From Actinomycetes bacterium (GTDB lineage Bacteria > Actinomycetota > Thermoleophilia > Gaiellales > Gaiellaceae), in NCBI GenBank assembly GCA_025964395.1, contig JAOPYY010000159.1:1-49124 (forward strand): DNA of 49,124 bases, in the 5' to 3' direction. Of this stretch, positions 4,977 to 43,757 are shown in pieces. A model generated the notes under the pieces. The model did no database searches. It was given only the letters and a program-made list of their open reading frames with translations, and was not told the DNA's origin. The translations under genes and the position numbers were made by a program. Positions within the stretch are counted from its first letter, which is position 1. Every line of letters starts with the position of its first letter.

Positions 4977-5426
4977 TCAGTCCCTGGCGCCCGGGGCTTC
5001 CGCGATCCGCTTGACGCGTGCCGGGAGCTTGCCGTTTGCGAGGTCGGCGAGCGTCACCGTCTCGAGGACGTTGCGCAGGCTCGCGCGCACCGCGATCCAA
5101 AGCTCCTGCAGGCTTTCGGCCGAGCCCGTGTATTCGAGGGCCATCGGTCGCGTTCCACGAACCGTCGCGAGCGGTCCGGCGACGGCTCGGATCACATCGG
5201 CCACGGTGATCTCGTCGGCTGGGCGGGCGAGGCGGAAGCCGCCTTCCGGGCCGCGTAAGGCATCGACGATCTCTTCCTTCTTCAGGTCGCGCAGGATGTT
5301 CTCGAGAAACGGCGCTGGGATGTTCTGCCGGTCCGCGATGTCCTCGCGCTTCACGATCGCGCCACCGGCAACGGCGAGCTCGATGACCGCTCGAATCGCA
5401 TAGTCCTCACGGGCTGTGATGCGCAC
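4977..5426 (-). CDS. Rrf2-family regulator, divergent to the sulfonate operon
   Basis: A 149-residue winged-helix repressor. The N-terminal ITAREDYAIRAVIELAV, the helix segment IPAPFLENILRDLKK and the wing GPEGGFRLARPADEITVADVIRAV are typical of Rrf2 proteins. There is no cysteine in the protein from the chosen start, so it cannot carry the cluster of IscR or NsrR and resembles CymR, the cysteine-metabolism regulator. GTG 5426 is chosen because the conserved domain begins there and AGGAAG lies 9 bases upstream. It is read away from the sulfonate operon, whose promoter region holds a palindrome. A second copy, similar along its whole length, follows the sulfate importer at 43 kb. Confidence 0.87.
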   Translation of the reverse strand: MRITAREDYAIRAVIELAVAGGAIVKREDIADRQNIPAPFLENILRDLKKEEIVDALRGPEGGFRLARPADEITVADVIRAVAGPLATVRGTRPMALEYTGSAESLQELWIAVRASLRNVLETVTLADLANGKLPARVKRIAEAPGARD

Positions 5427-5559
5427 GGCGCCATTCTTCCTGTTTGGGGAGCAGGACACGGTGTGACGCGCCGGCTGACTGCGTTACGGCGACGGAGCCG
5501 CACCAGGTGTCAGAGGTTGCTCTGCGGCTTGCCGCTATCGCATCCGCTGATCTCTGGTA

Positions 5560-5661: not shown

Positions 5662-6243
5662 ATGACCACGGACGCGGCACCGGAGAGAGTTGGAATGCAC
5701 GTGCTCCTGATCGACGGGTCTCCGACAGGTGGTGGGCGCACGGGCGCGGCCCTGGCGGCAGTCGGTGCCGCCGCCGCGAAGCGGGGTGCGCGGGTCGAGC
5801 TGGTTGCGCTGGGAGATCACCAGATCGGCGGCATCGAACGGGCCGTCGCGCAACTGGCGGACGCCGATGCAATCGCCTTCGGCTCGCCCGTCTACCGCGC
5901 GACGGCGGCTGCCCCGCTGAAGCAGCTGATCGACGTCATCCCTCGCACGAACGGCGAAGACTGGGACTCTCCACTCGCGGGCAAAGCAGTTGGGATCGTC
6001 CACACCGGCGCCTCGCTGCATCACTTCCTGGCGTCGAATGTCCTGCGTGACGTGCTGGCCGGCTTCTTTGCTGCGCATGTCTTGCCGCCCGGCCTCTACG
6101 TGCCGCGTGAAGGGTTCGGAGAAGGAGCAGCGCTGCTCGGCCCCTACGCCGACCAGGCGCATCAGCTGGGCTCAGCGCTCGTCGAGCTCGCCGAGGTGCT
6201 GCGAACCAACGCCGTCCTCCGTTCGCTGAGGCCGCAGGCATGA
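5662..6243 (+). CDS. NADPH-dependent FMN reductase (SsuE-like)
   Basis: A 193-residue flavodoxin-fold reductase that would supply reduced FMN to the two monooxygenases downstream. The phosphate-binding loop reads LLIDGSPTGGGRTGAAL near residues 14-30, and the FMN-side motif FGSPVYRATAAAPLKQLID is near 73. GGGAAGG lies a few bases before the ATG. It is the first gene of the operon and overlaps the next gene by ATGA. SsuE is the closest functional match; MsuE-type proteins are equally possible. Confidence 0.85.
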   Translation: MTTDAAPERVGMHVLLIDGSPTGGGRTGAALAAVGAAAAKRGARVELVALGDHQIGGIERAVAQLADADAIAFGSPVYRATAAAPLKQLIDVIPRTNGEDWDSPLAGKAVGIVHTGASLHHFLASNVLRDVLAGFFAAHVLPPGLYVPREGFGEGAALLGPYADQAHQLGSALVELAEVLRTNAVLRSLRPQA

Positions 6244-6818
6244 CCGGCTCGGCAGCGGAGAGGCATGTCCACAGCGACGTGTTCCGCCAGGTCATGGGTA
6301 CGCTCGCGTCGGGAGTCGCCGTGGTCACGACCGTCGACACCGACGGCCGGCCGCGCGGCTTGACGACCACGGCAGTCACGAGCGTGTCGCTGGACCCCCC
6401 GCTCCTGCTCGTCTGCGTCGGAAGCCAGAGCAGGACGTTGCCGGCAATCCAGCGCGCCGGCCGCTTCACCGTGAACCTGCTCGACTCGACGTTCCCCGCG
6501 GTCGCACTTCACTTCGCATCGAGTCTCGACGACAAGTTCGCCGACATCGCCTGGCGAGCGGGCGCGAACGACTGCCCCGTCCTCCATGAGCACGCGCTCG
6601 CGTGGGCGGAATGCCACACAGAGCGCGAAGTCGACGCCGGCGATCACGTCGTCTTCGTCGGGCGTGTCCACGACGGCAACCTCGCCGGAACCGGCCGCCT
6701 GCCGCTCACGTACTTCCGCGGCCGCTACGGCGGCTGGTCGCCCTCCGACACAAGCCACGTCGCTGCGGTCCCACCGACCTCAGTCCACCTCGAATCCCAG
6801 AGGGGAGATGCACGATGA
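6240..6818 (+). CDS. flavin reductase-like FMN-binding protein (DszD/HpaC type)
   Basis: A 192-residue member of the flavin reductase domain family (PF01613). It shows VMGTLASGVAVVTTVD, RGLTTTAVTSVSLDPPLLLVCV and the late GRFTVNLL and DHVVFVGRVHDG blocks typical of HpaC, SnaC and DszD. These supply free reduced flavin to two-component oxygenases. It is unusual to have both this and an SsuE-type reductase in one operon, which fits the operon encoding two different flavin-dependent oxygenases. Translation is coupled by an ATGA overlap with the gene before and another with the permease after. Confidence 0.87.
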   Translation: MTGSAAERHVHSDVFRQVMGTLASGVAVVTTVDTDGRPRGLTTTAVTSVSLDPPLLLVCVGSQSRTLPAIQRAGRFTVNLLDSTFPAVALHFASSLDDKFADIAWRAGANDCPVLHEHALAWAECHTEREVDAGDHVVFVGRVHDGNLAGTGRLPLTYFRGRYGGWSPSDTSHVAAVPPTSVHLESQRGDAR

Positions 6819-7732
6819 CCGTCACCACCAATGTCGCTGTCGATGCACGTGGGGCGCTGTCCTCGCCGTCGGCTGCATCGACGAGCGAGCCCGAGTCGTT
6901 CATCGACACGGAGACGTTCGCGCCGCCAGCGGCGCCACGGCTGCCGCTTGCACTACGCCGCCTCCGGTCGCCGCTCGGCATCTACACGACTCCGCTCGTA
7001 CTGCTCGCTGCCTGGCAGGTGGCGAGCTCACTGGGCGCCCTTTCCGAGACGCTCGCCGCTTCCCCGGTGGAGGTCACGAAGGCGGCCGTCCATCTCTGGC
7101 AGGTCGGCGCGCCGTCGACCCTCGGGGAGGACCTGCGGGTATCGCTGACGCGTGCACTCGTCGGCTTGGTCATCGGGGCGAGCATAGGCGGAGTGGCAGC
7201 GACATTCGCCGGGCTGTCCCGCTTCGGGGAGCAACTCTTCAACGGTCCCGTGCAGATCCTGAACACGGTCCCGTTCCTCGCGCTCCTGCCGCTCATGATC
7301 ATCTGGTTCGGGATCGGCGAGATGTCGAAGGTTCTGCTCATCGCGATCGGCGCCGGCGTCCCGGTGTACATCAACCTCTTTGCGGGAATCCGCAGCGTCG
7401 ACCAGCGCCTCGTCGAGATGGCAGCGGCTGCGGGCGCCGGCCGCTGGAGGCTGATCCGACGTGTGCTGCTCCCGGGCGCGCTTCCCGGCGCGCTCGTCGG
7501 GCTCCGCTTCGCGCTCGCCTACAGCGTCCTCGGCCTCGTCGTCGCGGAGCAGATCAACGCGAGCTCGGGGCTCGGCTTCATGGTCACGCAGGCCCAGACG
7601 TACCAGCGGATCGACGAGATGTTCCTCGGGCTCGCGATCTACGCGATCCTCGGGCTGAGCGCCGACCAGGTCGTGCGCCTGCTCGAACGCGTGCTCCTGA
7701 CCTGGCGTCCGGCATTCGGAGGCGCACGGTGA
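6815..7732 (+). CDS. ssuC: sulfonate-type ABC transporter permease
   Basis: Inner-membrane permease of the nitrate/sulfonate/taurine (SsuC/TauC) class, 305 residues with six predicted spans after a 50-residue N-terminal tail. The ATPase-contact loop reads EMAAAAGAGRWRLIRRVLLPGALPGALVGLR, the EAA-type loop. ATG 6815 is chosen because GGGGAG lies 8 bases upstream and it overlaps the reductase stop by ATGA. The gene order reductase-permease-ATPase-binding protein-monooxygenases marks it as part of an organosulfur importer; the exact substrate cannot be read from sequence. Confidence 0.87.
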   Translation: MTVTTNVAVDARGALSSPSAASTSEPESFIDTETFAPPAAPRLPLALRRLRSPLGIYTTPLVLLAAWQVASSLGALSETLAASPVEVTKAAVHLWQVGAPSTLGEDLRVSLTRALVGLVIGASIGGVAATFAGLSRFGEQLFNGPVQILNTVPFLALLPLMIIWFGIGEMSKVLLIAIGAGVPVYINLFAGIRSVDQRLVEMAAAAGAGRWRLIRRVLLPGALPGALVGLRFALAYSVLGLVVAEQINASSGLGFMVTQAQTYQRIDEMFLGLAIYAILGLSADQVVRLLERVLLTWRPAFGGAR

Positions 7733-8511
7733 CCGCGCTCGCCGTCGCGCAGCCGGCCGGCGCCGCCAAGACCGCCGACGTGGCCGTGCGCGTCCACGGC
7801 CTTCTCCGGCGGTTCGGCGAGCGGACGGTGCTCGACGGTCTCGACCTCGAGCTCCGCCGCTCCGAATTCGTGATCCTGCTCGGCCAGTCCGGCTGCGGCA
7901 AGAGCACGCTGCTGCGCCTACTCGGCGGGCTGGACGTCCCGGACGGCGGCGAGGTGTCCGTGCCGAGACGGCGCGCGCTCGTCTTCCAGGAGCCGCGTCT
8001 CCTGCCGTGGCAGCGCGTCTGGCGCAACGTCACGATCGGGATCGACGCGCGCGACCCGCGACAAATCGCTCTCGGTGTGCTCGACGAGGTCGGCCTCCGC
8101 GATCACGCCGTCGCGTGGCCGAAGACTCTGTCGGGTGGCGCGGCGCAACGCGTCGCCCGCGCGCGGGCCCTCGTCGCCAAGCCGGCGCTCGTGCTGCTCG
8201 ACGAGCCGTTCGCCGCACTCGACGCGATCACGCGCCTGCGCATGCACGACCTCGTCCGCGCACTTCGCGCGCGCCATGACGCGACGATGCTGCTCGTTAC
8301 ACACGACGTCGACGAGGCGATCGCGCTCGGCGATCGCATCCTCGTCATGCGCGACGGGTGCATTGCGAGCAGCCACGACGTCGACCTGGACACGCACGAA
8401 CGCTTCCGCGGTGCAGATCGCGATCGCATTCGCGCCGCGCTGCTCCACGAGCTCGGTATCGGCGCAATCGGATCTGCACCAGGCCTATCAACACAAAGGA
8501 GAGAACAATGA
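7729..8511 (+). CDS. ssuB: sulfonate-type ABC transporter ATPase
   Basis: A 260-residue ATPase that drives the SsuC-type permease. Walker A GQSGCGKST is near residue 52, the Q-loop reads VFQEPRLLPW, the signature is LSGGAAQR (usually LSGGQQQR), Walker B is LVLLDEPFAALDA and the switch histidine is VTHDVDEA. The Q-loop LLPW is characteristic of SsuB/TauB proteins. Start GTG 7729 overlaps the permease stop by four bases. The signature has AA where most family members have QQ or MR; function should be retained since the LSGG core is intact. Confidence 0.9.
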   Translation: MTALAVAQPAGAAKTADVAVRVHGLLRRFGERTVLDGLDLELRRSEFVILLGQSGCGKSTLLRLLGGLDVPDGGEVSVPRRRALVFQEPRLLPWQRVWRNVTIGIDARDPRQIALGVLDEVGLRDHAVAWPKTLSGGAAQRVARARALVAKPALVLLDEPFAALDAITRLRMHDLVRALRARHDATMLLVTHDVDEAIALGDRILVMRDGCIASSHDVDLDTHERFRGADRDRIRAALLHELGIGAIGSAPGLSTQRREQ

Positions 8512-9521
8512 AGTTCGGCAAGGCATCCACGAATGGAAGGCGCCTGCTGCTGGCAGTCGCCCTCGCCGGCGCAATCGGCGCCGCGGTCCTCACGGCAACG
8601 GGGACATCAACGGCCGCAGGCAGTGCGAAGCCGACGTTCGTCATCGGACAGCAGTCGTCGGGAATCATCTCGCTGGTCAAGGACTCGCACGCGTTCGACG
8701 GAGCCCCGTACAACATCAAGTGGGCCGTCTTCCCGTTCGGGCCTCCCGAGGTCGAGGCGATCTCCGCCGGTCAAGTCGACGTCGGCACCGACATCGGCGA
8801 CGTTCCGCCGATCAACGGCGCGGCCAAGGACCTCGGGTTCAAGGTGGTCGCGGCGCTCGTGCCGCCGGACGCGAAGCAGGCCGGCAACTACCTGGTCGTG
8901 CCGAAGGGCTCCCCGATCAAGAAGCTCGCCGATCTCCGCGGCAAGAATGTCGGCGTCCCGTTCGGTAGCTCGGCGCACGGCTTCCTCCTCAACGCCGTGG
9001 CGAGCGTCGGCCTGTCGCCGACGAGCGTGCACTTCGTCAACCTTGTCCCGGCTGCGCTCGCCGCGGCCTTCACCGGCGGCAAGATCGACGCCGAGGCGAT
9101 CTGGAACCCGCAGGCGGCTGTCGACGTCGGACGCGGCGGTCGCGTGCTCCTGGCCGGGCATCCGCCGCTCGATCCGAACGTCGGCTTCGTCGTCGCCGCC
9201 ACCAAGAACGTCACCGATCCGACGCGCAAGGCGCTCCTGACCGACCTGCTGAAGCGGCTCGGCCGCGCATACCAGTACGGCAACACGCATCCGGCGGTCT
9301 GGGTCAAGGATGTCCAGAAGGAGACCGGCATCGACGAGAAGACCGCGAAGGTCGTCGTCGCGAACGGCAAGACGACGATCCGCTACGTGACGCCGTCGAT
9401 CCTCAAGGCGGAGCAGCAGCTGGCCGACGCGTTCTTGAACGCCAAGCAGATCACGAAGCGCGTCAACGTCACATCGATCGTCGTGAACATCCTCCCGCCC
9501 GGGTACACCGGGGAGTCGTAG
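8508..9521 (+). CDS. ssuA: sulfonate-type ABC substrate-binding protein
   Basis: Exported binding protein of 337 residues with a signal peptide (RRLLLAVALAGAIGAAVL, cleavage near TSTAAG) and no lipobox cysteine, so it is probably not a lipoprotein. The SsuA/THI5-like fold shows in FVIGQQSSGI, the region EVEAISAGQVDVGTDIGDVPPI, and LADLRGKNVGVPFGSSAHGFL, then GGKIDAEAIWNPQAA. AAAGGAGAG precedes ATG 8508, which overlaps the ATPase stop. It should capture an organosulfonate or related anion for import. Confidence 0.87.
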   Translation: MKFGKASTNGRRLLLAVALAGAIGAAVLTATGTSTAAGSAKPTFVIGQQSSGIISLVKDSHAFDGAPYNIKWAVFPFGPPEVEAISAGQVDVGTDIGDVPPINGAAKDLGFKVVAALVPPDAKQAGNYLVVPKGSPIKKLADLRGKNVGVPFGSSAHGFLLNAVASVGLSPTSVHFVNLVPAALAAAFTGGKIDAEAIWNPQAAVDVGRGGRVLLAGHPPLDPNVGFVVAATKNVTDPTRKALLTDLLKRLGRAYQYGNTHPAVWVKDVQKETGIDEKTAKVVVANGKTTIRYVTPSILKAEQQLADAFLNAKQITKRVNVTSIVVNILPPGYTGES

Positions 9522-9523
9522 CG

Positions 9524-10861
9524 ATGGGCCGCACGCTGCACCTCAACGCCTTCCTCATGAGCTCGGGCCACCACGAGGCAGCGTGGCGGCTTCCGGAGAG
9601 CGATCCGCACGCCGACCTCGACGTCGACCACTGGGTGCGCCTCGCGCGGATCGCCGAACGCGGCGCGCTGGACTCGCTCTTCCTCGCCGACAGCCCGTCC
9701 TTCTGGCACGGCGCGGAGTTCCGTCCGGTCGGTCAGCTCGACCCGTTCGTGTTGCTCAGTGTGCTCGCCGCGGCGACGACGCACATCGGTCTGATCGCAA
9801 CCGCGTCGACGACCTACAACGCACCGTACAACCTCGCCCGCCGCTTCGCGTCGCTCGACCACGTGAGCGGCGGGCGAGCCGGCTGGAACATCGTGACGAC
9901 GCCGGAGCGCAGCGCGGCGCAGAACTTCGGTCTCGGCGACCGGCCCGACCACGCCGATCGCTACGCACGGGCGACTGAGTTCCTCGACGTCACGCTGAAG
10001 CTCTGGGACAGCTGGGACGACGACGCCGTCCTCGCCGACAAGGCGAGTGGCCGCTTCGCAGCTCCCGGCCGGATCCACACGATCGACCACGAGGGCGAGT
10101 ACTACAGCGTGCGCGGTCCGTTGAACGTGCCCCGGTCGCCACAGGGACGGCCGCTGCTCGTTCAGGCCGGCTCGTCCGAGGACGGCAAGGACTTCGCAGC
10201 GAGGTATGCGGAGGCGGTATTCACGGCCCAGCCGACGATCGAGGATGCACAGGCGTTCTACTCCGACCTGAAACAGCGCGCAAAGCAGTTCGGCCGCGAC
10301 CCCAGCGACGTCAAGATCCTGCCGGGCATCGTCCCGGTACTTGGGGGCACCGTGGCCGAGGCGGAGGAGCGCGCACGGGAGCTCGAAGAGCTGATCGTGC
10401 CTGCCTACGGCCTGCAACAGCTCGTGGAGATACTCGAAGTTCCCATCGAGATCCTCGAGCTCGACAAACAGTTGCCCGACGAGATCGCCGGGACCCAGAA
10501 CGTCGAAGGCGCGCGGAGCCGTGCCGCACTCGTCGTCGCGCTCGCCCGCCGCGAACGGTTGACGGTTCGCCAGTTGATCGGCCGCCTGGGTGGCGGCCGC
10601 GGTCACTGGACGGTCGTTGGCACGCCCGAGCAGGTGGCGGACGCGCTCGCGACGTGGTTCCGCGAAGGTGCGGCCGACGGCTTCAACGTTATGGGGCCGG
10701 TGCTCCCGGCGTCGCTCGCCGACTTCGTCGAGCACGTCGTGCCGATCCTTCGCCGCCATGGGCTCGTCCGCAGCGAGTACGAAGGGACAACGTTGCGTGA
10801 CCACTACGGTCTCACGCGGCCCGCCGGCCGGTACCAGCTCGCCGAGACCGCTGCCGCGTGA
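9524..10861 (+). CDS. FMN-dependent monooxygenase, NtaA/SnaA/DszA family
   Basis: A 445-residue luciferase-like TIM-barrel monooxygenase. The family start LHLNAFLMSSGHHEAAWRLP, SLFLADSPSFW, LARRFASLDHVSGGRAGWNIVTT and GEYYSVRGPLNVPRSPQGRPLLVQAG are hallmarks of the NtaA/SnaA/DszA/SfnG group, which use free reduced FMN. Members split nitrilotriacetate, dibenzothiophene sulfone or dimethyl sulfone. In this operon a C-S cleaving role, such as on a sulfone or an aryl sulfonate, is the likeliest. It follows the binding protein by 2 bases and overlaps the next ATPase gene by GTGA. Confidence 0.88.
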   Translation: MGRTLHLNAFLMSSGHHEAAWRLPESDPHADLDVDHWVRLARIAERGALDSLFLADSPSFWHGAEFRPVGQLDPFVLLSVLAAATTHIGLIATASTTYNAPYNLARRFASLDHVSGGRAGWNIVTTPERSAAQNFGLGDRPDHADRYARATEFLDVTLKLWDSWDDDAVLADKASGRFAAPGRIHTIDHEGEYYSVRGPLNVPRSPQGRPLLVQAGSSEDGKDFAARYAEAVFTAQPTIEDAQAFYSDLKQRAKQFGRDPSDVKILPGIVPVLGGTVAEAEERARELEELIVPAYGLQQLVEILEVPIEILELDKQLPDEIAGTQNVEGARSRAALVVALARRERLTVRQLIGRLGGGRGHWTVVGTPEQVADALATWFREGAADGFNVMGPVLPASLADFVEHVVPILRRHGLVRSEYEGTTLRDHYGLTRPAGRYQLAETAAA

Positions 10862-11607
10862 GCGGTTCGGTGGCACTGGCCGTCCGCGGCCTGACGAAGA
10901 CCTACCGGGCCGGCTTCACCGCCGTCCGCGATCTCGATCTCGTGATCGCGGACGGCGCGTTCTTCGGTCTGCTCGGACCGAACGGCGCGGGCAAGACGAC
11001 GTTGATCGGCGCCGTCTGCAACCTCCTGCGCCCGACGGCGGGCGAGATCCGCGTCTTCGGCCACGACCATGGCTCGCGTGAGGCGCGCCGCCTCGTGGGT
11101 CTCGCCGAGCAGGACGTGACTCTCGACCGTTTCATCGACGCCGAGGAGATGCTCGTCTTCCAGGCCGGCTACTACGGTCTCAGCCGCCGCGACGCGTGGA
11201 AGCGCGCGCGTGAGCTCCTCGACCAGTTCGACCTGAGCGCAAAGGCGAAGAGCCGGCGCTCGGAGCTGTCGGGCGGCATGCAGCGACGGCTGCTGCTTGC
11301 CCGCGCCCTCGTGCACCAGCCTCGGCTCTTGATCCTCGACGAGCCCACCGCGGGTGCGGACGTCGAACTTCGTGCCGAGCTCTGGAGCTACATCCGGCGC
11401 CTGCACGGCGCCGGCACGACGGTGCTCCTGACAACCCACTATCTCGAAGAGGCGGAAGCGCTCTGCGACGAGATCGCGGTCCTGCGCGACGGCGCAATCG
11501 TCGCCCGCGGGAGTGCGGATGCGTTGCGGGAGCGCTTCGACGCGCGCGACATCGGCGAGCTCTACCTTCGCGTGCTCGAGAGCGCGCGCACGACGGCGGC
11601 CGCGTGA
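10858..11607 (+). CDS. ABC-2 type exporter ATPase inside the sulfonate operon
   Basis: A 249-residue ATPase of the DrrA/NodI class. Walker A GPNGAGKTT, signature LSGGMQRRL, Walker B LLILDEPTAGADVE and switch histidine LTTHYLEEAE are all intact. The helical region is that of ABC-2 exporters, not of SsuB importers. The gene is joined to the monooxygenase by a four-base overlap and to its permease by another, so it is translated with the sulfur genes. Its cargo is unknown; a toxic oxidation product is one possibility. Confidence 0.88.
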   Translation: MSGSVALAVRGLTKTYRAGFTAVRDLDLVIADGAFFGLLGPNGAGKTTLIGAVCNLLRPTAGEIRVFGHDHGSREARRLVGLAEQDVTLDRFIDAEEMLVFQAGYYGLSRRDAWKRARELLDQFDLSAKAKSRRSELSGGMQRRLLLARALVHQPRLLILDEPTAGADVELRAELWSYIRRLHGAGTTVLLTTHYLEEAEALCDEIAVLRDGAIVARGSADALRERFDARDIGELYLRVLESARTTAAA

Positions 11608-12407
11608 GCGCTGTCGCGCCGCATCCGGAAGCGGGGGCGTTTCGCGCTGCGCGGTCTCCGTTCCTCTGGCTGCTCGAGCGGGAGATCGTCCGCTTTCTCA
11701 AGCTCTGGCGGTTCGCGCTCGTCGGGCAGGTGCTCTCCGCGCTGCTCTTCGTCCTCGTCTTCGGCATCGCGCTCGCCGGGCGCATCGACGCGGTCGGCGG
11801 GGTTCCCTACAAGCGCTTCATTCTCCCCGGCCTTGTCGTGCAGGCGGTGTTCACCGTGGGCTTCGTCAACGGGACCACGAGCCTCTTCGAAGCGCGGCAC
11901 GACGGATACATCAACGCCGTGCTCGCGAGCCCGCTTCGCTGGTGGGAGATCAATCTCGCCCTGGTCGTCGGCAGCATCGTCCGCGAGGTCATTGTCGGTG
12001 CCGGCGTGCTCGCCCTCGCCGGGCCGTTCGTCGGGCTCGGCTTCTCGCGGCCGCTGGTCGCGGTCGGCGCACTCGTCGCGCTTCTCGTCACCGGCGCGCA
12101 GGTCGGCGTGCTTGCAGGCGCCTACGCGCGGTCGCTCGACGACATCTACTCGATCGAGTCGCTCGCCGTGCTTCCGCTCGGCTTCCTCAGCGGGATCTTC
12201 TATTCGGTCGATCGCCTCCCGGGCGTGTGGCGCACGCTGACGCACCTCGACCCGCTCTTCTACTTCGTCGAGGCGGCACGCATCGGCGTGCTTGGCACCG
12301 GCGACATCTCAGCCGGCGTCGCGCTCGCCGTCGCAGGCGGAATCGCGGCCGCGTTGACCGCGTGGTCGCTTCTTGTCTTCCGCTCCGCATCCACCCTCAA
12401 GCCCTGA
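11604..12407 (+). CDS. ABC-2 type exporter permease
   Basis: A 267-residue membrane protein with six predicted spans, the partner of the preceding ATPase. It shows the ABC-2 motif region FILPGLVVQAVFTVGFVNGTTSLFEARHDGYINAVLASPLRWWEI and the late LAVLPLGFLSGIFYSVDRLP with a following LTHLDPLFYFVEAAR. These are typical of NodJ/DrrB-like permeases. GTG 11604 overlaps the ATPase stop. It ends 13 bases before ssuD. Confidence 0.86.
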   Translation: MSAVAPHPEAGAFRAARSPFLWLLEREIVRFLKLWRFALVGQVLSALLFVLVFGIALAGRIDAVGGVPYKRFILPGLVVQAVFTVGFVNGTTSLFEARHDGYINAVLASPLRWWEINLALVVGSIVREVIVGAGVLALAGPFVGLGFSRPLVAVGALVALLVTGAQVGVLAGAYARSLDDIYSIESLAVLPLGFLSGIFYSVDRLPGVWRTLTHLDPLFYFVEAARIGVLGTGDISAGVALAVAGGIAAALTAWSLLVFRSASTLKP

Positions 12408-12420
12408 AGAAGGAGCACCC

Positions 12421-13581
12421 ATGCCCGTCACCCTGCACTGGTACCTCCCGACGAGCGGCGACGGCCGCACCTTGCTCACCGCAGACTCGCCGCTCCTCCA
12501 ACGTGACGAGTGGACGGAGGACGCGCCCGGGAGGATCGCCGACATCGACTACCTCGCGCAGATCGCACGTTCCGCCGAGCACATGGGCTTCGACGCCGCG
12601 CTGACTCCGACCGGGACCTGGTGCGCCGACGCTTGGCTCGTCACCGCCGCGCTCTCGCAGGTGACGAAGAGGCTCCGGTTCCTCGTCGCGTTCCGGCCGG
12701 GGCAGATCTCGCCGACACTTGCGGCGCAGCAGGCCGCGACCTTCCACCGGCTCTTCGGCGGACGCCTCCTGCTCAACATCGTGACGGGCGGGGACGAAGT
12801 CGAGCAGCGCCGGTTCGGCGACTACCTCGACAAGGACGAGCGCTACGCGAGGACCGACGAGTTCCTCGAAATCGTGCGCAGCGCGTGGACGGGCGAGCCT
12901 TTCAGCCTCGACGGGCGGCATCTGAGCGTCGACGGAGCCGTCGTCGCCGATCCGCCCGAGCCCCCGCCGGCGATTTACTTCGGCGGCTCCTCCGAGGCCG
13001 CGCTGCCGGTCGCCGCGCGGCACAGCGACGTCTACCTCACCTGGGGCGAGCCACCCGCTCAGGCCGCGGAGAAGATCGAGCGCGTGCGCCGACTCGCCGA
13101 GGCGCAGGGGCGGACGCTCAGGTTCGGCATCCGTCTTCACATCATCACGCGCGACACGTCCGAAGAGGCGTGGGCGGCGGCCGACCGCCTCCTCGACGGG
13201 CTCGGCGAGGCCGAGCTCGACGCGGCGCAGGCGCTCCTGCGCTCCTCCGGCTCGGAAGGCCAGCGCCGCATGCTCGCCCTGAACGGCGGCAACCGCGACC
13301 GGCTCGAGGTGTACCCGAACCTCTGGGCCGGCGTCGGACTCGTGCGCGGCGGCGCCGGCACCGCGCTCGTCGGAAGCCACGAGGAGGTCGCCGAACGGAT
13401 CGCCGAGTATCACGAGCACGGCTTCGACGAGTTCATCTTCTCCGGCTATCCGCACCTCGAAGAGATCTACAACGTCGGCGAAGGCGTGATGCCGATCCTC
13501 CGGCGCGCCGGTCTGCTAGAGGGAACGGCGCTGAAGCCGGTCGAGCACGATGTGCCGCTGAGTCGTTCCGGAAGGCGCTGA
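12421..13581 (+). CDS. ssuD: FMNH2-dependent alkanesulfonate monooxygenase
   Basis: Cleaves the C-S bond of alkanesulfonates, giving an aldehyde and sulfite for assimilation. The 386-residue protein follows SsuD throughout: TLHWYLPTSGDGR, the active-site region TPTGTWCADAW (SsuD has a cysteine here), VAFRPGQISPTLAAQQAAT, LLLNIVTGGD, IYFGGSSEAA, GIRLHIITRDT and the C-terminal LVGSHEEVAERIAEYHEHGFDEFIFSGYPHLEE. AAGGAG lies 8 bases before ATG 12421. It closes the operon and uses reduced FMN from the reductases at its start. Confidence 0.94.
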   Translation: MPVTLHWYLPTSGDGRTLLTADSPLLQRDEWTEDAPGRIADIDYLAQIARSAEHMGFDAALTPTGTWCADAWLVTAALSQVTKRLRFLVAFRPGQISPTLAAQQAATFHRLFGGRLLLNIVTGGDEVEQRRFGDYLDKDERYARTDEFLEIVRSAWTGEPFSLDGRHLSVDGAVVADPPEPPPAIYFGGSSEAALPVAARHSDVYLTWGEPPAQAAEKIERVRRLAEAQGRTLRFGIRLHIITRDTSEEAWAAADRLLDGLGEAELDAAQALLRSSGSEGQRRMLALNGGNRDRLEVYPNLWAGVGLVRGGAGTALVGSHEEVAERIAEYHEHGFDEFIFSGYPHLEEIYNVGEGVMPILRRAGLLEGTALKPVEHDVPLSRSGRR

Positions 13582-32104: not shown

Positions 32105-33079
32105 ATGGCCCGGTCTGACAAGGTTTCAAGGGACGCCGGAATCGAGGTGATCGGCCTCGTGCGGCGCTTCAAGGACGTCGAAGCCGTGGCCGGGATCGAC
32201 CTGACGATCAGCCCCGGCGAGATCTACGGCTTCCTCGGCCCGAACGGCGCCGGGAAATCGACCACGGTCCACATGCTCACGACCCTCCTCCCCCCTTCGG
32301 CCGGCCGGGCGACCGTCGCGGGCTTCGACGTCGTCAAGCAGGGCTCGAAGGTGCGCGCCTCGATCGGCGCCGCGCTCCAGGAAGCCGCGCTCGACCCCTT
32401 TCTGACGGGCCGCGAGCACCTGCGTCTCGGCGCCTCGCTGCACGGGATCCGCGGCACCGAGCGGAAGCAACTGATCGAGCGCCTGCTCGAGCGCGTCGGC
32501 CTCACCACCGCCGGCGACCGGAAGGTGCGCACGTACTCGGGCGGGATGAAGCGCCGGCTCGACCTCGCCCTCGCGCTCATCCACGACCCGTCGATCCTCT
32601 TCCTCGACGAGCCGACCACCGGGCTCGACCCGCAGAGCCGCTCGGCGCTCTGGACGGAGGTCGCCCGCCTCGCGCGCGAGGAGGGCGTAACCGTCTTCCT
32701 GACGACGCAGTACCTCGAGGAGGCCGACGTGCTCGCCGACCGCGTCGGGATCATCGACCACGGGCACATCGTCGCCGAGGGCACTCCTGGGGATCTGAAA
32801 GCACAGATCGGCAAGTCGACCGTGGAAGTCGTGCCCGAGAACCACGACGAGCTCGGCCGGTTGCGCGAGCTGCTATTGCGCTTCGGCGAGGAGACGGCGG
32901 CACGTCCCGGCGCGTTCGCCGTGCAGCTGAACGGCAAGGGCGAGCTGCCCTCGGTGATCCGCGCGCTCGACACCGAGAGCCTGCGCGCCGCGGAGATCAA
33001 CCTGCACCAGCCGACGCTCGACGACGTGTTCCTCGCGAAGACCGGCCGCACCCTCGAGGGCGCGGAAGAGCAGGCGTAA
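32105..33079 (+). CDS. ABC-2 exporter ATPase (DrrA type)
   Basis: A 324-residue ATPase with Walker A GPNGAGKST, signature TYSGGMKRRLDLA, Walker B ILFLDEPTTGLDP and switch region LTTQYLEEADVLADR, where glutamine replaces the usual histidine as in DrrA. A 90-residue C-terminal extension ends LHQPTLDDVFLAKTGRTLEG, the DrrA-type tail needed to bind its permease. Such systems export drugs or lipids. It is translated with two permeases through one-base and four-base overlaps. Confidence 0.9.
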   Translation: MARSDKVSRDAGIEVIGLVRRFKDVEAVAGIDLTISPGEIYGFLGPNGAGKSTTVHMLTTLLPPSAGRATVAGFDVVKQGSKVRASIGAALQEAALDPFLTGREHLRLGASLHGIRGTERKQLIERLLERVGLTTAGDRKVRTYSGGMKRRLDLALALIHDPSILFLDEPTTGLDPQSRSALWTEVARLAREEGVTVFLTTQYLEEADVLADRVGIIDHGHIVAEGTPGDLKAQIGKSTVEVVPENHDELGRLRELLLRFGEETAARPGAFAVQLNGKGELPSVIRALDTESLRAAEINLHQPTLDDVFLAKTGRTLEGAEEQA

Positions 33080-33855
33080 TGAGTGTGATCGCGCACCAGG
33101 TCGCGCTGATCGCGCAGCGCTCACTGGTGCGCACCGCGCGCCAGCCGGGTGTCTGGATCCCGCCGCTCACGTTCCCGCTGATCCTGATGGCGGTCAACTC
33201 GAACGGCCTGAAGGCGGCGACGCACCTCCCCGGTTTCCCGACGAACTCGTTCCTCGCGTTCTTCGTGCCGTTCTCGTTCATGCAGGGCGCGCTCTTTGCC
33301 TCCGCGATCGCCGGCACCGATCTCGCGCGTGACGTCGACACCGGCTTCCTGAACCGGCTCGCGCTGACGCCGGTGCGCGGCGCCGCGCTGCTGATCGGCC
33401 AGGTCGGCGGCGCCGTCGGTCTCGGGACAATCCAGGCGGTCGTCTACCTCGCGGTGGCCTTGCTGGCCGGCGTGCACATCGTCGCCGGCATCGGCGGCGC
33501 GGTCCTGATCCTGTTGCTGGCGATCCTCGTCGCGACAGGCTTCGGGACGCTCGGGTTGTGGATCGCCCTGCGCACCGGCTCCGGCGAAGGCGTGCAGTCG
33601 ACGTTCCCGCTGCTCTTCTTCCTGCTGCTGATCTCGAGCATGAACCTGCCGCGCAACCTGATCGAGGTCAACTGGTTCCGCGACCTCGCGACGATCAACC
33701 CGGTCAGCTACATGATCGAGGCGATGCGGTCGCTCGTGATCTCCGGGTGGGACACGCAGGCGCTCGTGCTCGGGTTCGGCTTCGCGTTGGCGCTGATCGG
33801 CATCTCGCTGCTTCTCTCGGCCCGTCAGCTGAAGGTCAGGATGTCTCGCACATGA
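33079..33855 (+). CDS. ABC-2 exporter permease, first
   Basis: A 258-residue DrrB-like permease with six spans. PLTFPLILMAVNSNGLKAA near the start, FVPFSFMQGALFASAIAGTDLARDVDTGFLNRLALTPVRG in the middle and LLISSMNLPRNLIEVNWFRDLATINPVSYMIEAMRSL at the end are the family pattern. ATG 33079 overlaps the ATPase stop by one base. It pairs with the next gene to form a heterodimer. Confidence 0.87.
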   Translation: MSVIAHQVALIAQRSLVRTARQPGVWIPPLTFPLILMAVNSNGLKAATHLPGFPTNSFLAFFVPFSFMQGALFASAIAGTDLARDVDTGFLNRLALTPVRGAALLIGQVGGAVGLGTIQAVVYLAVALLAGVHIVAGIGGAVLILLLAILVATGFGTLGLWIALRTGSGEGVQSTFPLLFFLLLISSMNLPRNLIEVNWFRDLATINPVSYMIEAMRSLVISGWDTQALVLGFGFALALIGISLLLSARQLKVRMSRT

Positions 33856-34613
33856 TCAGCGTGGCACTCGGCCTCGCGTACCGGCAACTCACGGTGCTGT
33901 TCAAGAACCCGTCGCTCTTCCTGCCGCCGATGCTCTTCCCGCTGATGAACTTCATGTCGTTCGCCGGCGGTCTCTCGCGGCTGCGCCACGTGCCGGGGTT
34001 CGACTTCCACAGCGGCTACACGGCGTTCACCTTCGTCTTCGTGCTGCTGCAGTCGGCCGCGTTCGGCGGTGTCTTCGCCGGGTTCGGGATCGCGCGCGAC
34101 TTCGAGTACGGCTTCGCACGCCGGCTCCTCGTCTCCGCTCCTCAGCGATCGGGCCTGATCCTCGGCTACGCACTGTCCGCGCTCACACGGTGGGCGATGA
34201 TCGCGATCGTCCTGACGACCGTCGCGCTGATCGGCGGCATGCAGGTCGGCGGCAACGGGATCGACCTGTTCGGGATGTACGCGCTGGCGATGATCTTCAA
34301 CATCGTCGGGCTGCTCTGGGCCTGCGGCGTCGCGATGCGCTTCCGCTCCATCCAGTCCGGGCCGTTGATGCAGACGCCTGTCTTCCTGCTGCTCTTCCTA
34401 TCGCCGGTCTACGTCCCCCTCTCGCTCCTGACCGGCTGGATCCACGGCGTCGCGCGCGTCAACCCGCTCACGTTCCTGCTCGAGGCCGGCCGGGGCTTCA
34501 TCGACGGCCACCCAACACAGCTGGCAGCTGCGTTCGGCGTCTCCGCGGCGCTCGTGGTCTTCTTCGCGTTCTGGGCCAGGACGGGCCTCGCACGCGCAGA
34601 GCGCGCCGGCTGA
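33852..34613 (+). CDS. ABC-2 exporter permease, second
   Basis: A 253-residue DrrB-like permease with six spans, paralogous to the one before (FLPPMLFPLMNFMSFAGGLSRL, AGFGIARDFEYGFARRLLVSAPQRSGLILGY, FLLLFLSPVYVPLSLLTGWIHGVARVNPLTFLLEAGR). ATG 33852 overlaps the first permease by ATGA. Two unequal permeases with one ATPase mean an asymmetric exporter. Confidence 0.87.
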   Translation: MISVALGLAYRQLTVLFKNPSLFLPPMLFPLMNFMSFAGGLSRLRHVPGFDFHSGYTAFTFVFVLLQSAAFGGVFAGFGIARDFEYGFARRLLVSAPQRSGLILGYALSALTRWAMIAIVLTTVALIGGMQVGGNGIDLFGMYALAMIFNIVGLLWACGVAMRFRSIQSGPLMQTPVFLLLFLSPVYVPLSLLTGWIHGVARVNPLTFLLEAGRGFIDGHPTQLAAAFGVSAALVVFFAFWARTGLARAERAG

Positions 34614-39150: not shown

Positions 39151-39179
39151 TTGACGTATGAGAGCTTCTTATGTATTTG
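39151..39179 (+). promoter_or_regulatory. putative promoter of the sulfate importer operon
   Basis: TTGACG (39151-39156) and TATTTG (39174-39179) are spaced 17 bases apart in an AT-rich patch and end 6 bases before ATG 39186. TATTTG is a weaker -10 than others in the window. TTGAC-TA is shared with the sulfonate operon palindrome. Confidence 0.38.
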
Positions 39180-39185
39180 TTCACC

Positions 39186-40190
39186 ATGCCTATGAACAAA
39201 GCCAAGAAAATCACCCTCCTCGCCGCGGTCTTCGCGGCCCTCGCCGTAGCGACCGCCGCGGCTGCCGGCACGAACATCTCGCTCGTCGGCTACTCCACCC
39301 CCAAGGCCGTGATGGGAAAGATCATCCAGGCCTGGCAGCAGACCCCCGCCGGCAAGGACACGTCGTTCAGCCAGTCCTTCGGCGCCTCCACCGACCAGGC
39401 CCGCGCGGTCGCGAACGGCCTGAAGGCCGACCTCGTCTTCCTCTCGACCGGCGACGACGTCAACCTCCTCGTCGACGCCGGCCTCGTCGACTCGAACTGG
39501 AACCACCAGGCCTACAACGGGATCGGCGCCGACACCGTCGTCGTCTTCGCGGTGCGCAACGGCAACCCGAAGCACATCAAGGGCTGGAACGACCTGATCC
39601 GCCCCGGCGTCCAAGTGCTTACCCCGAACCCGTTCAGCTCCGGCTCGGCGAAGTGGAACATCCTCGCCGCCTACGGCGCACAGCGCCGCCTCGGCAAGAC
39701 CGACAAGCAGGCAACCGCGTACTTGCAGGAGCTCTTCAAGCACGTCGTCTCCCAGGACACCTCCGGCCGCAACGCCACGAACACGTTCCTCAGCGGCAAG
39801 GGCGACGTCCTGCTCACCTACGAGAGCGAGGCGCTGAACGCGCGGCTCAACGGCCAGGACATCCAGTACGTCATCCCCCGCCAGTCGATGCTGATCGAGC
39901 TCCCGATCGCGGTGCTCAAGAACAACCCGAACAAGGACATCGCGAACAAGTTCATCCAGTTCGTGAAGCAGCCCGCCGCGCAGGATCTGTTCGCGCAGTA
40001 CGGCTTCCGGCCGGTCAACCCGACGGTCGCGAAGAAGTACACCGCGAAGTTCCCGGCGCGTCCGGGCATCTTCAAGGTCGACGACAAGATCATCGGCGGC
40101 TGGCGCCACGCCGACGATGTCTGGTTCGACCCGAACAAGGGCCGCATGGTCGGGATCGAACGTGCCATCGGAGGACCGACCACTGGCTGA
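39186..40190 (+). CDS. sulfate ABC transporter binding protein
   Basis: An exported 334-residue binding protein for sulfate (Sbp/CysP). A signal peptide (KKITLLAAVFAALAVATAAAAG) is followed by ISLVGYSTPKAVMGKIIQAW, FSQSFGASTDQARAVANGLKADLVFLST, NPFSSGSAKWNILAAYGA, GKGDVLLTYESEA and YGFRPVNPTV, the family's sulfate-binding signatures. No lipobox cysteine is present. ATG 39186 or 39192 are both possible; the in-frame ATG at 39171 would overlap the promoter. It opens the sulfate operon. Confidence 0.92.
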   Translation: MPMNKAKKITLLAAVFAALAVATAAAAGTNISLVGYSTPKAVMGKIIQAWQQTPAGKDTSFSQSFGASTDQARAVANGLKADLVFLSTGDDVNLLVDAGLVDSNWNHQAYNGIGADTVVVFAVRNGNPKHIKGWNDLIRPGVQVLTPNPFSSGSAKWNILAAYGAQRRLGKTDKQATAYLQELFKHVVSQDTSGRNATNTFLSGKGDVLLTYESEALNARLNGQDIQYVIPRQSMLIELPIAVLKNNPNKDIANKFIQFVKQPAAQDLFAQYGFRPVNPTVAKKYTAKFPARPGIFKVDDKIIGGWRHADDVWFDPNKGRMVGIERAIGGPTTG

Positions 40191-41028
40191 TACCGCGCAC
40201 GCGGGCCCTCTGTCCCGCAGATCACGACGCCACTCCAACGAGGGGGCCGCAGCCGCGGCCCTCTCGCTGGGTTTTACGACATCGTTCCTCTCCGTGATCG
40301 TGCTCCTCCCGATCGCGGCGCTCGTGTGGGCGTCGCAGAAGGACGGGCTACATCAGTTCTGGTCGGTCGCGACGTCGCCCGAGGCCATCGCCGCGCTCAA
40401 GCTCACGCTTGGCGCGTCGGTCGTGGTGTCGCTCGTCAGCGCCTTCTTCGGAACGATCACCGCGTGGGTGCTCGTCCGCGACGAGTTCCGCGGCAAGAGC
40501 ATTGTCAACGCGGTGATCGACCTGCCGTTTGCGCTGCCGACGATCGTCGCCAGCCTGACGTTGCTCGCGCTCTACGGTCCGCAGTCGCCGCTCGGGATCG
40601 ACATCTCGCTCACGCGGAAGGCGATCGTGCTCGCGCTGCTCTTCGTGACGCTGCCGTTCGTCGTGCGCACGGTGCAGCCGGTGCTGCTCGAGCTCGACCT
40701 CGAGGCGGAAGAAGCCGCGCGCTCCCTCGGCGCGAGCGAGCTCCGCGTCTTCCGAAGCATCGTGCTGCCGAACATCCTCCCCGGCATCCTGTCCGGCGTC
40801 GCGCTCGCGTTCGCGCGCGCGGTCGGTGAGATCGGCGCGCTCGTGCTGATCGCCGGCAACGTGCCGTTCAAGACCGAGGTCGCGTCGGTGTTCGTCTTCC
40901 TGCACATCCAGGGCGGCGACCAGGCAGGCGCCTCCGCGGTCGCGGTCGTGATGCTCGTCATCTCCTTCGCGCTGCTGCTCGCAATCGGCGGCCTGCGCTT
41001 TCTTGCGACGAGGCACGAGCGTGCGTAG
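40162..41028 (+). CDS. cysT: sulfate ABC transporter permease CysT
   Basis: A 288-residue permease with six spans. FTTSFLSVIVLLPIAALVW, VIDLPFALPTIVASLTLLALYG, the ATPase contact loop EEAARSLGASELRVFRSIVLPNILPGILSGVALAFARAVGEIGALVLIAGN match CysT/CysU. It overlaps the end of the binding-protein gene by 29 bases. GTG 40162 is chosen, but GGAGG at 40170-40174 is well placed for a CTG at 40183, which would remove seven residues. The longer frame from 40117 is less likely. Confidence 0.88.
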   Translation: MPSEDRPLADTAHAGPLSRRSRRHSNEGAAAAALSLGFTTSFLSVIVLLPIAALVWASQKDGLHQFWSVATSPEAIAALKLTLGASVVVSLVSAFFGTITAWVLVRDEFRGKSIVNAVIDLPFALPTIVASLTLLALYGPQSPLGIDISLTRKAIVLALLFVTLPFVVRTVQPVLLELDLEAEEAARSLGASELRVFRSIVLPNILPGILSGVALAFARAVGEIGALVLIAGNVPFKTEVASVFVFLHIQGGDQAGASAVAVVMLVISFALLLAIGGLRFLATRHERA

Positions 41029-41051
41029 GCTCGACGGAGCACGAGAAATAC

Positions 41052-41846
41052 ATGCGTAAGTACATCTTGCGCTTCCTCGCGCTGGGCTATCTGCTGGCGG
41101 TACTGCTGGGGCCGCTGTCGATGGTGTTCTTCCGGGCGTTCGACAAAGGCACCGGCGCGCTCTGGAAGACGCTGAGCGATCCGAACACGGTGCACGCGTT
41201 CAAGCTGACGCTGATCATCGCACTGATCGCGGTCCCGTTGAACGCGGTCTTCGGGGTGGTCTGCGCGCTCGCGATCGTGCGCCGCCGCTTCCCCGGCGCC
41301 GGCCTCGTCAACGCGATCGTCGACCTGCCGCTCGCCATCTCCCCCGTCGTCGTCGGCCTCTCGCTCTTCCTGCTCTACGGGCGCACCGGCTGGTTCGGGC
41401 CGTGGTTCGCACGGCACGGCATGCAGATCCTCTTCGCGCTGCCCTCGATGGTGATCGCGACGATCTTCGTGTCCCTTCCGTTCGTGGCACGCGAGGTGGT
41501 ACCGACGCTGCGCGAGATCGGCGATGAGCAGGAGCAGGCCGCGCGCACTCTCGGCGCATCGAGCTGGCAGACGTTCTGGCGGATCACCCTGCCGTCGATC
41601 CGCTGGGCGGTCATCTACGGCGTCGTGCTCACGACGGCCCGCTGCCTCGGTGAGTACGGCGCGGTCGCGGTCGTGTCTGGCAACATCGAAGGCAAGACGC
41701 AGACGGCGACCCTGCGCGTGCAGGACGCCTACGAGAACTTCAACCAGTCCGGCGCGTACGGAATCTCCCTCGTGCTCGCCGCCATCTCCGTCGTCGTCCT
41801 GATCACCATGACGGTACTGCGGCCCAAGGAGGAAGAGGCTCTGTGA
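41052..41846 (+). CDS. cysW: sulfate ABC transporter permease CysW
   Basis: A 264-residue partner permease with six spans. [49 protein letters not shown] and the loop [52 protein letters not shown] are typical of CysW. TGRTGWFG-type loops distinguish it from CysT. It lies between cysT and cysA, and its stop overlaps the cysA start. Confidence 0.92.
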
Positions 41847-42793
41847 GCATCGAGGTACGCAACGTGTCCAAGCGGTTCGGGAGCTTCCAGGCCCTGGACG
41901 ACGTCTCGCTTGACGTCGACGGCGGCGCGCTGACCGCGCTCCTCGGCCCGTCGGGCTCCGGCAAGTCGACCCTGCTCCGCATCATCGCGGGTCTCGAGTG
42001 GCCGGACAGCGGCGAGATCCACCTCGCCGGCGAGGACGCCACACCACTCACGACGCAGCAACGCGGTGTCGGCTTCGTCTTCCAGCACTACGCGGCGTTC
42101 AAGCACATGAGCGTGCGCGAGAACATCGCGTTCGGGCTGAAGATTCGCAAGCGTCCGAAGGACGAGGTGCGCTCGCGCGTCGACGAGCTCCTCGACCTCG
42201 TGCAGCTGCAGGGCTTCGGTGACCGCTATCCGGCGCAGCTCTCAGGGGGCCAGCGGCAGCGCATGGCGCTGGCCCGCGCGCTTGCACCGGAGCCGAAGGT
42301 GCTCCTGCTGGACGAGCCGTTCGGCGCCCTGGACGCGCGCGTGCGCGCGGAGCTTCGCGTCTGGCTGCGGCGGCTCCACGACGAGACCCACACGACCACC
42401 GTGTTCGTCACGCACGACCAGGAAGAGGCGATGGACGTCGCCGACAGCGTCGTCGTGATGAACAAGGGCCGCGTCGAGCAGGTCGCCGGCCCGCGTGAGC
42501 TCTACGACGCTCCCGCAAACGAGTTCGTGATGTCGTTCGTCGGACAGGCAACGCGGATCGACGACGCGTGGGTCCGCCCACACGACTTCGAGCTCGTGCT
42601 CGTGCCGAACGGCTCGACGCGCGAGGCGCAGGTCGAACGCGTCGTCCACCTCGGCTTCGAAGTCCGCGCCGAGCTCGTGCGCGACGACGGCGAGACCCTT
42701 GCCGTGCAACTGACGCGCGACCAGGCAGCGCAACTGGAACTGGAGCGCGGCCAGATCGTCTACGTCCGCCCCACCCACCAGACCACCTTTTAG
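41843..42793 (+). CDS. cysA: sulfate ABC transporter ATPase CysA
   Basis: A 316-residue ATPase. Walker [11 protein letters not shown]-loop [13 protein letters not shown] (characteristic of CysA), signature [15 protein letters not shown], Walker [14 protein letters not shown] and switch histidine [13 protein letters not shown] are intact. The C-terminal 75 residues form a TOBE-type regulatory domain ([17 protein letters not shown]). The start GTG 41843 overlaps cysW. Two tandem hairpins follow the stop. Confidence 0.94.
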
Positions 42794-42906: not shown

Positions 42907-43362
42907 TCAGTGCGGTGCCCAGGCGTCCGGGTCGGCGGCCAGGGCCTGGACCGACGCCGGCAGCTCGCCGCGGGCGAGGTCGGCGAGCGTCACCTGCTCG
43001 AGCACGCCGCGCAGGCTCGCGCGCACCGCGACCCACACATCGCGCAGCGGCGCGGCGCTGCCCTCGTAGCTGAGCTGCTCCGAGCGGACGCCGCGGACGT
43101 TCGCGAGTGGGCCGTCGACCGCGCGGATGATGTCCGCGAGACTGACCTCCTCGGCGGGACGCGCGAGCCAGTAGCCGCCGTCGGCGCCGCGCCGGCTGGC
43201 GACGAGGCCGGCGTTCCGGAGGTCGCCTAAGATGTTCTCGAGGAAGTTCGACGGGATGTCCTGCGCCTGTGCGATGCGGTCGCCCTTCACCGGGCCGTCG
43301 CCGGCGGCTGCCAGCTCCACCGCCGCCCGGATCGCGTAGTCCGCCTTCGCTGAGACCCTCAC
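42907..43362 (-). CDS. Rrf2-family regulator beside the sulfate importer
   Basis: A 151-residue winged-helix regulator, clearly a paralog of the one at 5 kb: both have ADYAIRA/EDYAIRA, FLENIL, GGxxLARPA, GPLAxVRG, WVAVRASLRGVLEQVTLADLA and a GxLP end. It also lacks cysteine. GTG 43362 begins the conserved domain. It converges on cysA and presumably controls sulfate import; the two regulators may respond to the same sulfur signal, such as O-acetylserine or a cysteine synthase complex as known for CymR. Confidence 0.87.
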   Translation of the reverse strand: MRVSAKADYAIRAAVELAAAGDGPVKGDRIAQAQDIPSNFLENILGDLRNAGLVASRRGADGGYWLARPAEEVSLADIIRAVDGPLANVRGVRSEQLSYEGSAAPLRDVWVAVRASLRGVLEQVTLADLARGELPASVQALAADPDAWAPH

Positions 43363-43397
43363 GCAACCATTCTGCCCTGCGCGGCGTTGCACCACTG

Positions 43398-43757
43398 ATG
43401 CGTCGGCTCCCCGTCCTTCTGATCGGCTTCGCGGCCGCCCTCGCGGCGGCCCTGATCGCGAACGCGGGCTCCACCGGGAAAACGGCCTTCCGGACGCCCG
43501 ACGCAGGCGCCGCGTGCAAGGTCTCGGGCCTGTCGCTCGTCTGCTCGTCCCTCGGGTCACCTGGCTCGGTCGAGCTGCGCGGAAGAGGCGGCGCTCAGGT
43601 CGTCAGCCGGCTCCCGTGGTGGGACGCCTCGACGCCCGTCCTGCACACCTGGCACCACGGCGCGATCTCCTGCCGCCTCGCCGGCAACGCAATCCTCTGC
43701 CGCAACGACTCGACCGCGATCCGCATCACCGCGGCCGGACTCTCCGTCGCGAGCTAG
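43398..43757 (+). CDS. small secreted hypothetical protein
   Basis: A 119-residue protein with a signal peptide (RLPVLLIGFAAALAAALIANAG) and four cysteines in the mature part (AACKVSG, VCSSLG, SCRLAG, LCRNDS), which may form two disulfides. I do not recognise the family. The start ATG 43398 lies 35 bases from the divergent Rrf2 start. It ends sharing the bases CTAG with the stop of the acetyltransferase gene. Confidence 0.68.
   Translation: MRRLPVLLIGFAAALAAALIANAGSTGKTAFRTPDAGAACKVSGLSLVCSSLGSPGSVELRGRGGAQVVSRLPWWDASTPVLHTWHHGAISCRLAGNAILCRNDSTAIRITAAGLSVAS

Follow-up and report, generated by a model that had tools for sequence, protein, structure and literature searches.

The ssuEADCB genes form the alkanesulfonate operon of Escherichia coli, and the ytm operon of Bacillus subtilis carries the YtnJ and MoxC monooxygenases. 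To our knowledge, the ytm operon has an importer of another class and lacks an ABC-2 pair. The disposal of carbon after C-S cleavage has rarely been pinned to a gene in sulfur-scavenging bacteria, and in fuel biodesulfurisation the build-up of product is a recognised concern. One study reports that NtaA-class genes are induced with sulfonates as sole sulfur source (PMC7661421). In a table of another, a DrrA-type ATPase whose level rose on dibenzothiophene carries the label 'probable 2-HBP efflux' (PMC8557817).

In the present study we describe a locus from the Gaiellaceae (assembly GCA_025964395.1) in which an ABC-2 ATPase and permease lie inside an operon of sulfonate-type genes. The window is the whole stretch analysed, 49,124 nucleotides of contig JAOPYY010000159.1. 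Our literature search, which covered few subscription journals, found no description of the gene module reported below.

Gene content of the window operon

Nine genes run on the plus strand from 5662 to 13581, with a regulator gene divergent from them. The features are as follows.

4977..5459, minus strand: Rrf2-family regulator (IscR/CymR-like), divergent and upstream of the operon; TIGR00738, 112.5 bits (cut-off 73.3)
5662..6243, plus strand: NADPH-dependent FMN reductase, SsuE/MsuE-like; PF03358, 75 bits
6240..6818, plus strand: flavin reductase of the HpaC/HsaB class; PF01613, 151 bits
6815..7732, plus strand: SsuC-like importer permease; PRK11365, 210.9 bits, below cut-off
7729..8511, plus strand: SsuB-like importer ATPase; PRK11247, 210.8 bits, below cut-off
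8508..9521, plus strand: SsuA-like substrate-binding protein, ATG at 8508; TIGR01728, 150.7 bits (cut-off 163.5)
9524..10861, plus strand: FMNH2-dependent monooxygenase of the NtaA/DmoA/DszA class; TIGR03860, 572.5 bits, above the cut-off of 279.7
10858..11607, plus strand: predicted exporter ATPase (DrrA-like), GTG start; PF00005, 105.9 bits
11604..12407, plus strand: predicted ABC-2 exporter permease, GTG start; PF01061, 96.0 bits (cut-off 26.9)
12421..13581, plus strand: SsuD-like alkanesulfonate monooxygenase; PRK00719, 456 bits (cut-off 510)

The SsuA, SsuB and SsuC models are the best-named ones for the importer genes, yet all score below cut-off and indicate class resemblance only. The SsuD protein likewise falls short of its equivalog model (TIGR03565, 446.9 bits against 518.2), and the FMN reductase is far below that of SsuE (50.9 against 164). 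Because these scores lie under curated equivalog cut-offs, SsuA, SsuD and the other names are used here as class names that imply no substrate. The SsuA-like protein matches a sulphonate-binding protein of known structure (PDB 2x26) at 104 bits. Relatives of the NtaA-class enzyme in the PDB include 3sdo, YtnJ (347 bits), MoxC, DszA, EDTA monooxygenase and dimethyl-sulfide monooxygenase.

The initial annotation had placed an export-class ATPase and permease between a DszA-type monooxygenase and ssuD, and the coordinates, Pfam families and fold matches bear this out. Walker A, LSGG and Walker B residues of the ATPase are invariant in an 11-row alignment (A2), so that the catalytic motifs are kept. 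The best named models for the pair are DrrA/DrrB and PRK15066, and membership of the DrrAB subfamily is not reached by either protein (DrrA, the best NCBIfam model for the ATPase, 241 bits with a cut-off of 312; DrrB 85 bits against 223). A structure model of the permease (mean pLDDT 82.6) retrieved KpsM (E 5e-7), Wzm, TarG and ABCG exporters with Foldseek, indicating a type V fold. From the residues and the modelled fold, the pair is predicted to be an export-class ABC-2 transporter working outwards.

The exporter genes had been described as joined by four-base overlaps. They are present between the NtaA-class gene and the ATPase (GTGA at 10858-10861) and between ATPase and permease (GTGA at 11604-11607), and absent between permease and ssuD, where a 13-base gap with an AAGGAG-like site separates the permease stop from the ATG at 12421. 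The genes of the operon are probably co-transcribed.

The Rrf2 regulator possibly senses sulfur status. Elsewhere in the window, at 39171-42793 (plus strand) and 42907-43560 (minus strand), lie all components of a sulfate importer (binding protein, CysT, CysW and CysA) and a second Rrf2 regulator, a paralogue 58% identical to the first. The window thus contains two sulfur-uptake operons, each adjoined by one of the paralogous regulators. At 32123-34493, two ABC-2 permease matches come after another ATPase of the DrrA-like kind.

Conservation and descent of the exporter with the sulfonate genes

One genome per species was scanned for the permease, which yielded 22 loci, and 17 of them retain the order ssuC-ssuB-ssuA-NtaA-ATPase-permease, referred to here as the module. 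These 17 belong to Mycobacterium/Mycolicibacterium, Streptomyces and Actinacidiphila. A family search added one further full module (L112 in genome G898), giving 18 core loci besides the window; L113 and L114 (judged by length to be the contigs of L012 and L020) and L139 (from the genome of L021) were left out of this count as duplicates. Both ssuC and ssuB are present in 18/18 core loci. Short gene overlaps are commonplace in GC-rich operons, but the recurrence of the gene order, together with a 4-base ATPase-permease overlap in 16 of the 18 core loci, indicates that these joints exceed chance. In 15/18, the NtaA and ATPase frames allow an overlap of 4, 8 or 14 bases. The overlap counts used the nearest in-frame start and are biased towards small distances.

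The conserved unit consists of ssuCBA, the NtaA-class gene and the exporter, and is frequently preceded by a TauD-like gene or followed by a flavoprotein gene. No match to ssuD was obtained in any of the 18 other core loci, and conservation of the order monooxygenase-ABC2-ssuD, with its exporter-ssuD junction, is therefore rejected. The inventory of an importer, two oxygenases, two flavin reductases and an exporter describes the window operon accurately and does not extend elsewhere: neither ssuD nor the two reductases are conserved among the core loci, so they are best regarded as additions specific to the window. The TauD-like gene lies 5' of ssuC in six Streptomycetaceae exporter loci and in L112. 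Of the 18 core loci, 8 have a complete or nearly complete gene for a fumarate-reductase-like flavoprotein 3' of the permease, and a further 3 have it in fragments. Examples directly adjoining the permease are at L001:10801-12393 and L010:10802-12699, with a small ferredoxin-like protein following in L010. The window operon has neither gene, and a search of its genome (88.8% complete) for the flavoprotein gave a best match of just 26%.

The remaining loci of the scan differ in setting. Sister exporter pairs in three Mycobacterium loci (L013, L017, L018) lie in large organosulfur islands with several other NtaA-class genes, SfnB-like genes and rhodanese genes; the L013 island also holds an oligopeptide-type importer. 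The L014 pair, of the wider clade, adjoins a sugar-type importer and has no NtaA or SsuA match beside it. The L022 permease is 29% identical to that of the window and is not close kin. Plasmid records gave no match in a permease search.

Wider relatives of the pair, taken with their flanks from the window's class and a phylum sample (permease about 32-47% identical), served as controls. In a permease tree of 59 rows, the 18 core loci and the window form one group (support 93/94) with the window basal. The module label requires 1 change on this tree, against 16.4 in shuffles, and 0/500 shuffles were as low. It was found in 0/37 rows of other permease relatives, 36 of which came from genome searches and included several loci cut by contig ends (e.g. 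L057, L064, L066, L123). Near the 36 control pairs of the tree there was no NtaA or SsuA match; in one control (L124), an SsuD homologue lies on the opposite strand at a distance of about 4.4 kb. Across 17 complete gene sets, permease and ATPase distances follow the NtaA and SsuA/B/C distances (r 0.87-0.94), and over all six proteins the correlations range from 0.87 to 0.97. These comparisons show that exporter and core share descent. The claim that the exporter belongs with the sulfur genes is thus upheld by the module loci and by the single tree group of the linked pairs. The same two results rule out a chance insertion confined to the window's genome, the circumstance under which the link was to be judged accidental.

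The close form of the module is rare. It was found in 1/394 genomes of the class of G497 (G497 itself), in 4/249 of the family of G497 and in 2/251 of the family of G496. In a set of 121 relatives of the window, the window's own genome was the sole one to score >300 bits, and NtaA-class genes above cut-off occurred in 5/121. The phylum sample likewise gave nothing >300 bits except the window, probably owing to how the group is drawn. All these figures are lower bounds, since scoring in the large searches was confined to 6-10 candidates per genome.

Cores without an exporter and the candidate role of the pump

The module NtaA profile was run against 200 Streptomycetaceae genomes, of which 9 match at 862-906 bits, with the next at about 700. 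The exporter accompanies 2/9 of these core-type NtaA copies (G497, G504) and is absent from 7/9, so that a strict link between pump and core is too simple. Five of the seven exporter-less loci have the entire TauD-ssuCBA-NtaA core and two have NtaA alone in view, one of these at a contig end. No pump remnants were found near the seven, the ATPase matches there being ssuB. The flavoprotein gene of the exporter loci (11/18 including fragments) is present in 0/7 of them. Three (L136, L137, L138) have an FMN-reductase-like gene, named by eye, 3' of NtaA in the usual place of the exporter.

The exporter label requires 5 changes in each core tree (NtaA; ssuB+ssuC), and at least 3 changes are forced by well-supported branches. 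In the NtaA tree the window joins the core at support 94, on a branch that is not starred, while the NtaA nearest to that of the window in identity belongs to an exporter-less type (67%, L143); the ssuB+ssuC tree lacks resolution for the placement of the window. Given these changes and the basal position of the window and G898, the most fitting history is an old association followed by several losses. In L020 the ATPase frame appears broken and the flavoprotein is fragmented, which is consistent with loss still under way. The exporter may also have been regained by transfer within Streptomycetaceae. The occurrence of the core without the exporter indicates that desulfonation itself does not require the pump.

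An evenly balanced case can be made that the operon scavenges sulfur from an organosulfonate or similar oxidised organosulfur compound and that the ABC-2 pair exports a polar sulfur-free remnant or side product. The SsuABC-like proteins would bring in the compound. The SsuE/MsuE-like reductase would supply FMNH2, and the NtaA-class enzyme, a probable desulfonating enzyme, would split the C-S bond, aided in the window by SsuD and the two flavin reductases. Sulfite so released would enter assimilation, and the pair would then expel the polar remnant, or a dead-end side product, which is not used as carbon. We infer this order of steps, from import through cleavage and assimilation to export, from the classes of the genes. 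A polar product without sulfur is the best reading of the cargo. Sulfite is an unlikely cargo, since it is the product the cell wants, as is a small aldehyde, which would diffuse out. The persistence of the core without its exporter fits an accessory disposal step better than a role in uptake or catalysis. Also in favour are the recurrence of the module, the single tree group, the parallel protein distances, the overlaps, the exporter fold matches, the reported induction of NtaA-class genes on sulfonates (PMC7661421) and the efflux role listed for a possibly related DrrA-type ATPase (PMC8557817). Against product export, the pump is missing beside the majority of core-type NtaA copies sampled in Streptomycetaceae, the L014 pair adjoins a sugar-type importer and has no NtaA or SsuA match, and desulfonation often yields small products that may diffuse out of the cell.

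Three other roles were weighed. Return of excess or non-cleavable sulfonates, or of toxic analogues, imported by the SsuABC-like proteins is unlikely, if well worth keeping in mind: conservation of the module, the tree group and the overlaps apply to it equally, and such a pump would also be dispensable, matching the exporter-less cores. The pair overlaps the monooxygenase and not the importer genes, however, which hints at the product side without being decisive. That the cargo is itself a sulfur compound, either sulfite overflow or a metabolite built from scavenged sulfur, seems improbable. The wider organosulfur islands of the sister pairs speak for it, but the operon resembles a starvation-type scavenging set, in which losing sulfur would make little sense, and the sulfite exporters known so far are of the TauE/SafE type. 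We give very little weight to a general drug-type exporter, DrrAB-like and in the operon by accident. This would agree with the best named models and with the wide spread of related pairs that have no sulfur link, but the association covers the whole group, down to the basal window, and the overlaps are retained.

Returning to product export, we tentatively propose, with rather more doubt than belief, that a product exporter was inherited with the ssuCBA-NtaA core in Mycobacteriaceae, Streptomycetaceae and the window's lineage, that the carbon skeleton is spilled to the community, and that the pump is lost from hosts that can use the product. If true, a dedicated exporter would allow cells to take nothing but the sulfur from sulfonates. 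The pump is conserved and encoded in the operon, and some natural relatives lack it, which opens the disposal question to direct testing.

Comparison with known systems

The window operon shares with ssuEADCB the classes of importer, FMN reductase and FMNH2-dependent monooxygenase. It differs in its extra NtaA-class enzyme and ABC-2 export pair, and in that several of its proteins score below equivalog cut-offs. The likeness to the ytm operon lies in YtnJ, which is among the close relatives of the NtaA-class enzyme in the PDB. The ABC-2 ATPase and permease families of DrrAB, YadGH and NodIJ match the pair, whereas pairs of the window type form a separate sequence group linked to sulfonate genes. 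As in Dsz/4S desulfurisation, sulfur would be removed while the carbon skeleton remains, and DszA belongs to the class of the NtaA-class enzyme. For the Dsz/4S pathway of R. qingshengii IGTS8, an efflux role for a DrrA-type ATPase was proposed from proteomics (PMC8557817); in the window, the candidate pump is encoded within the operon.
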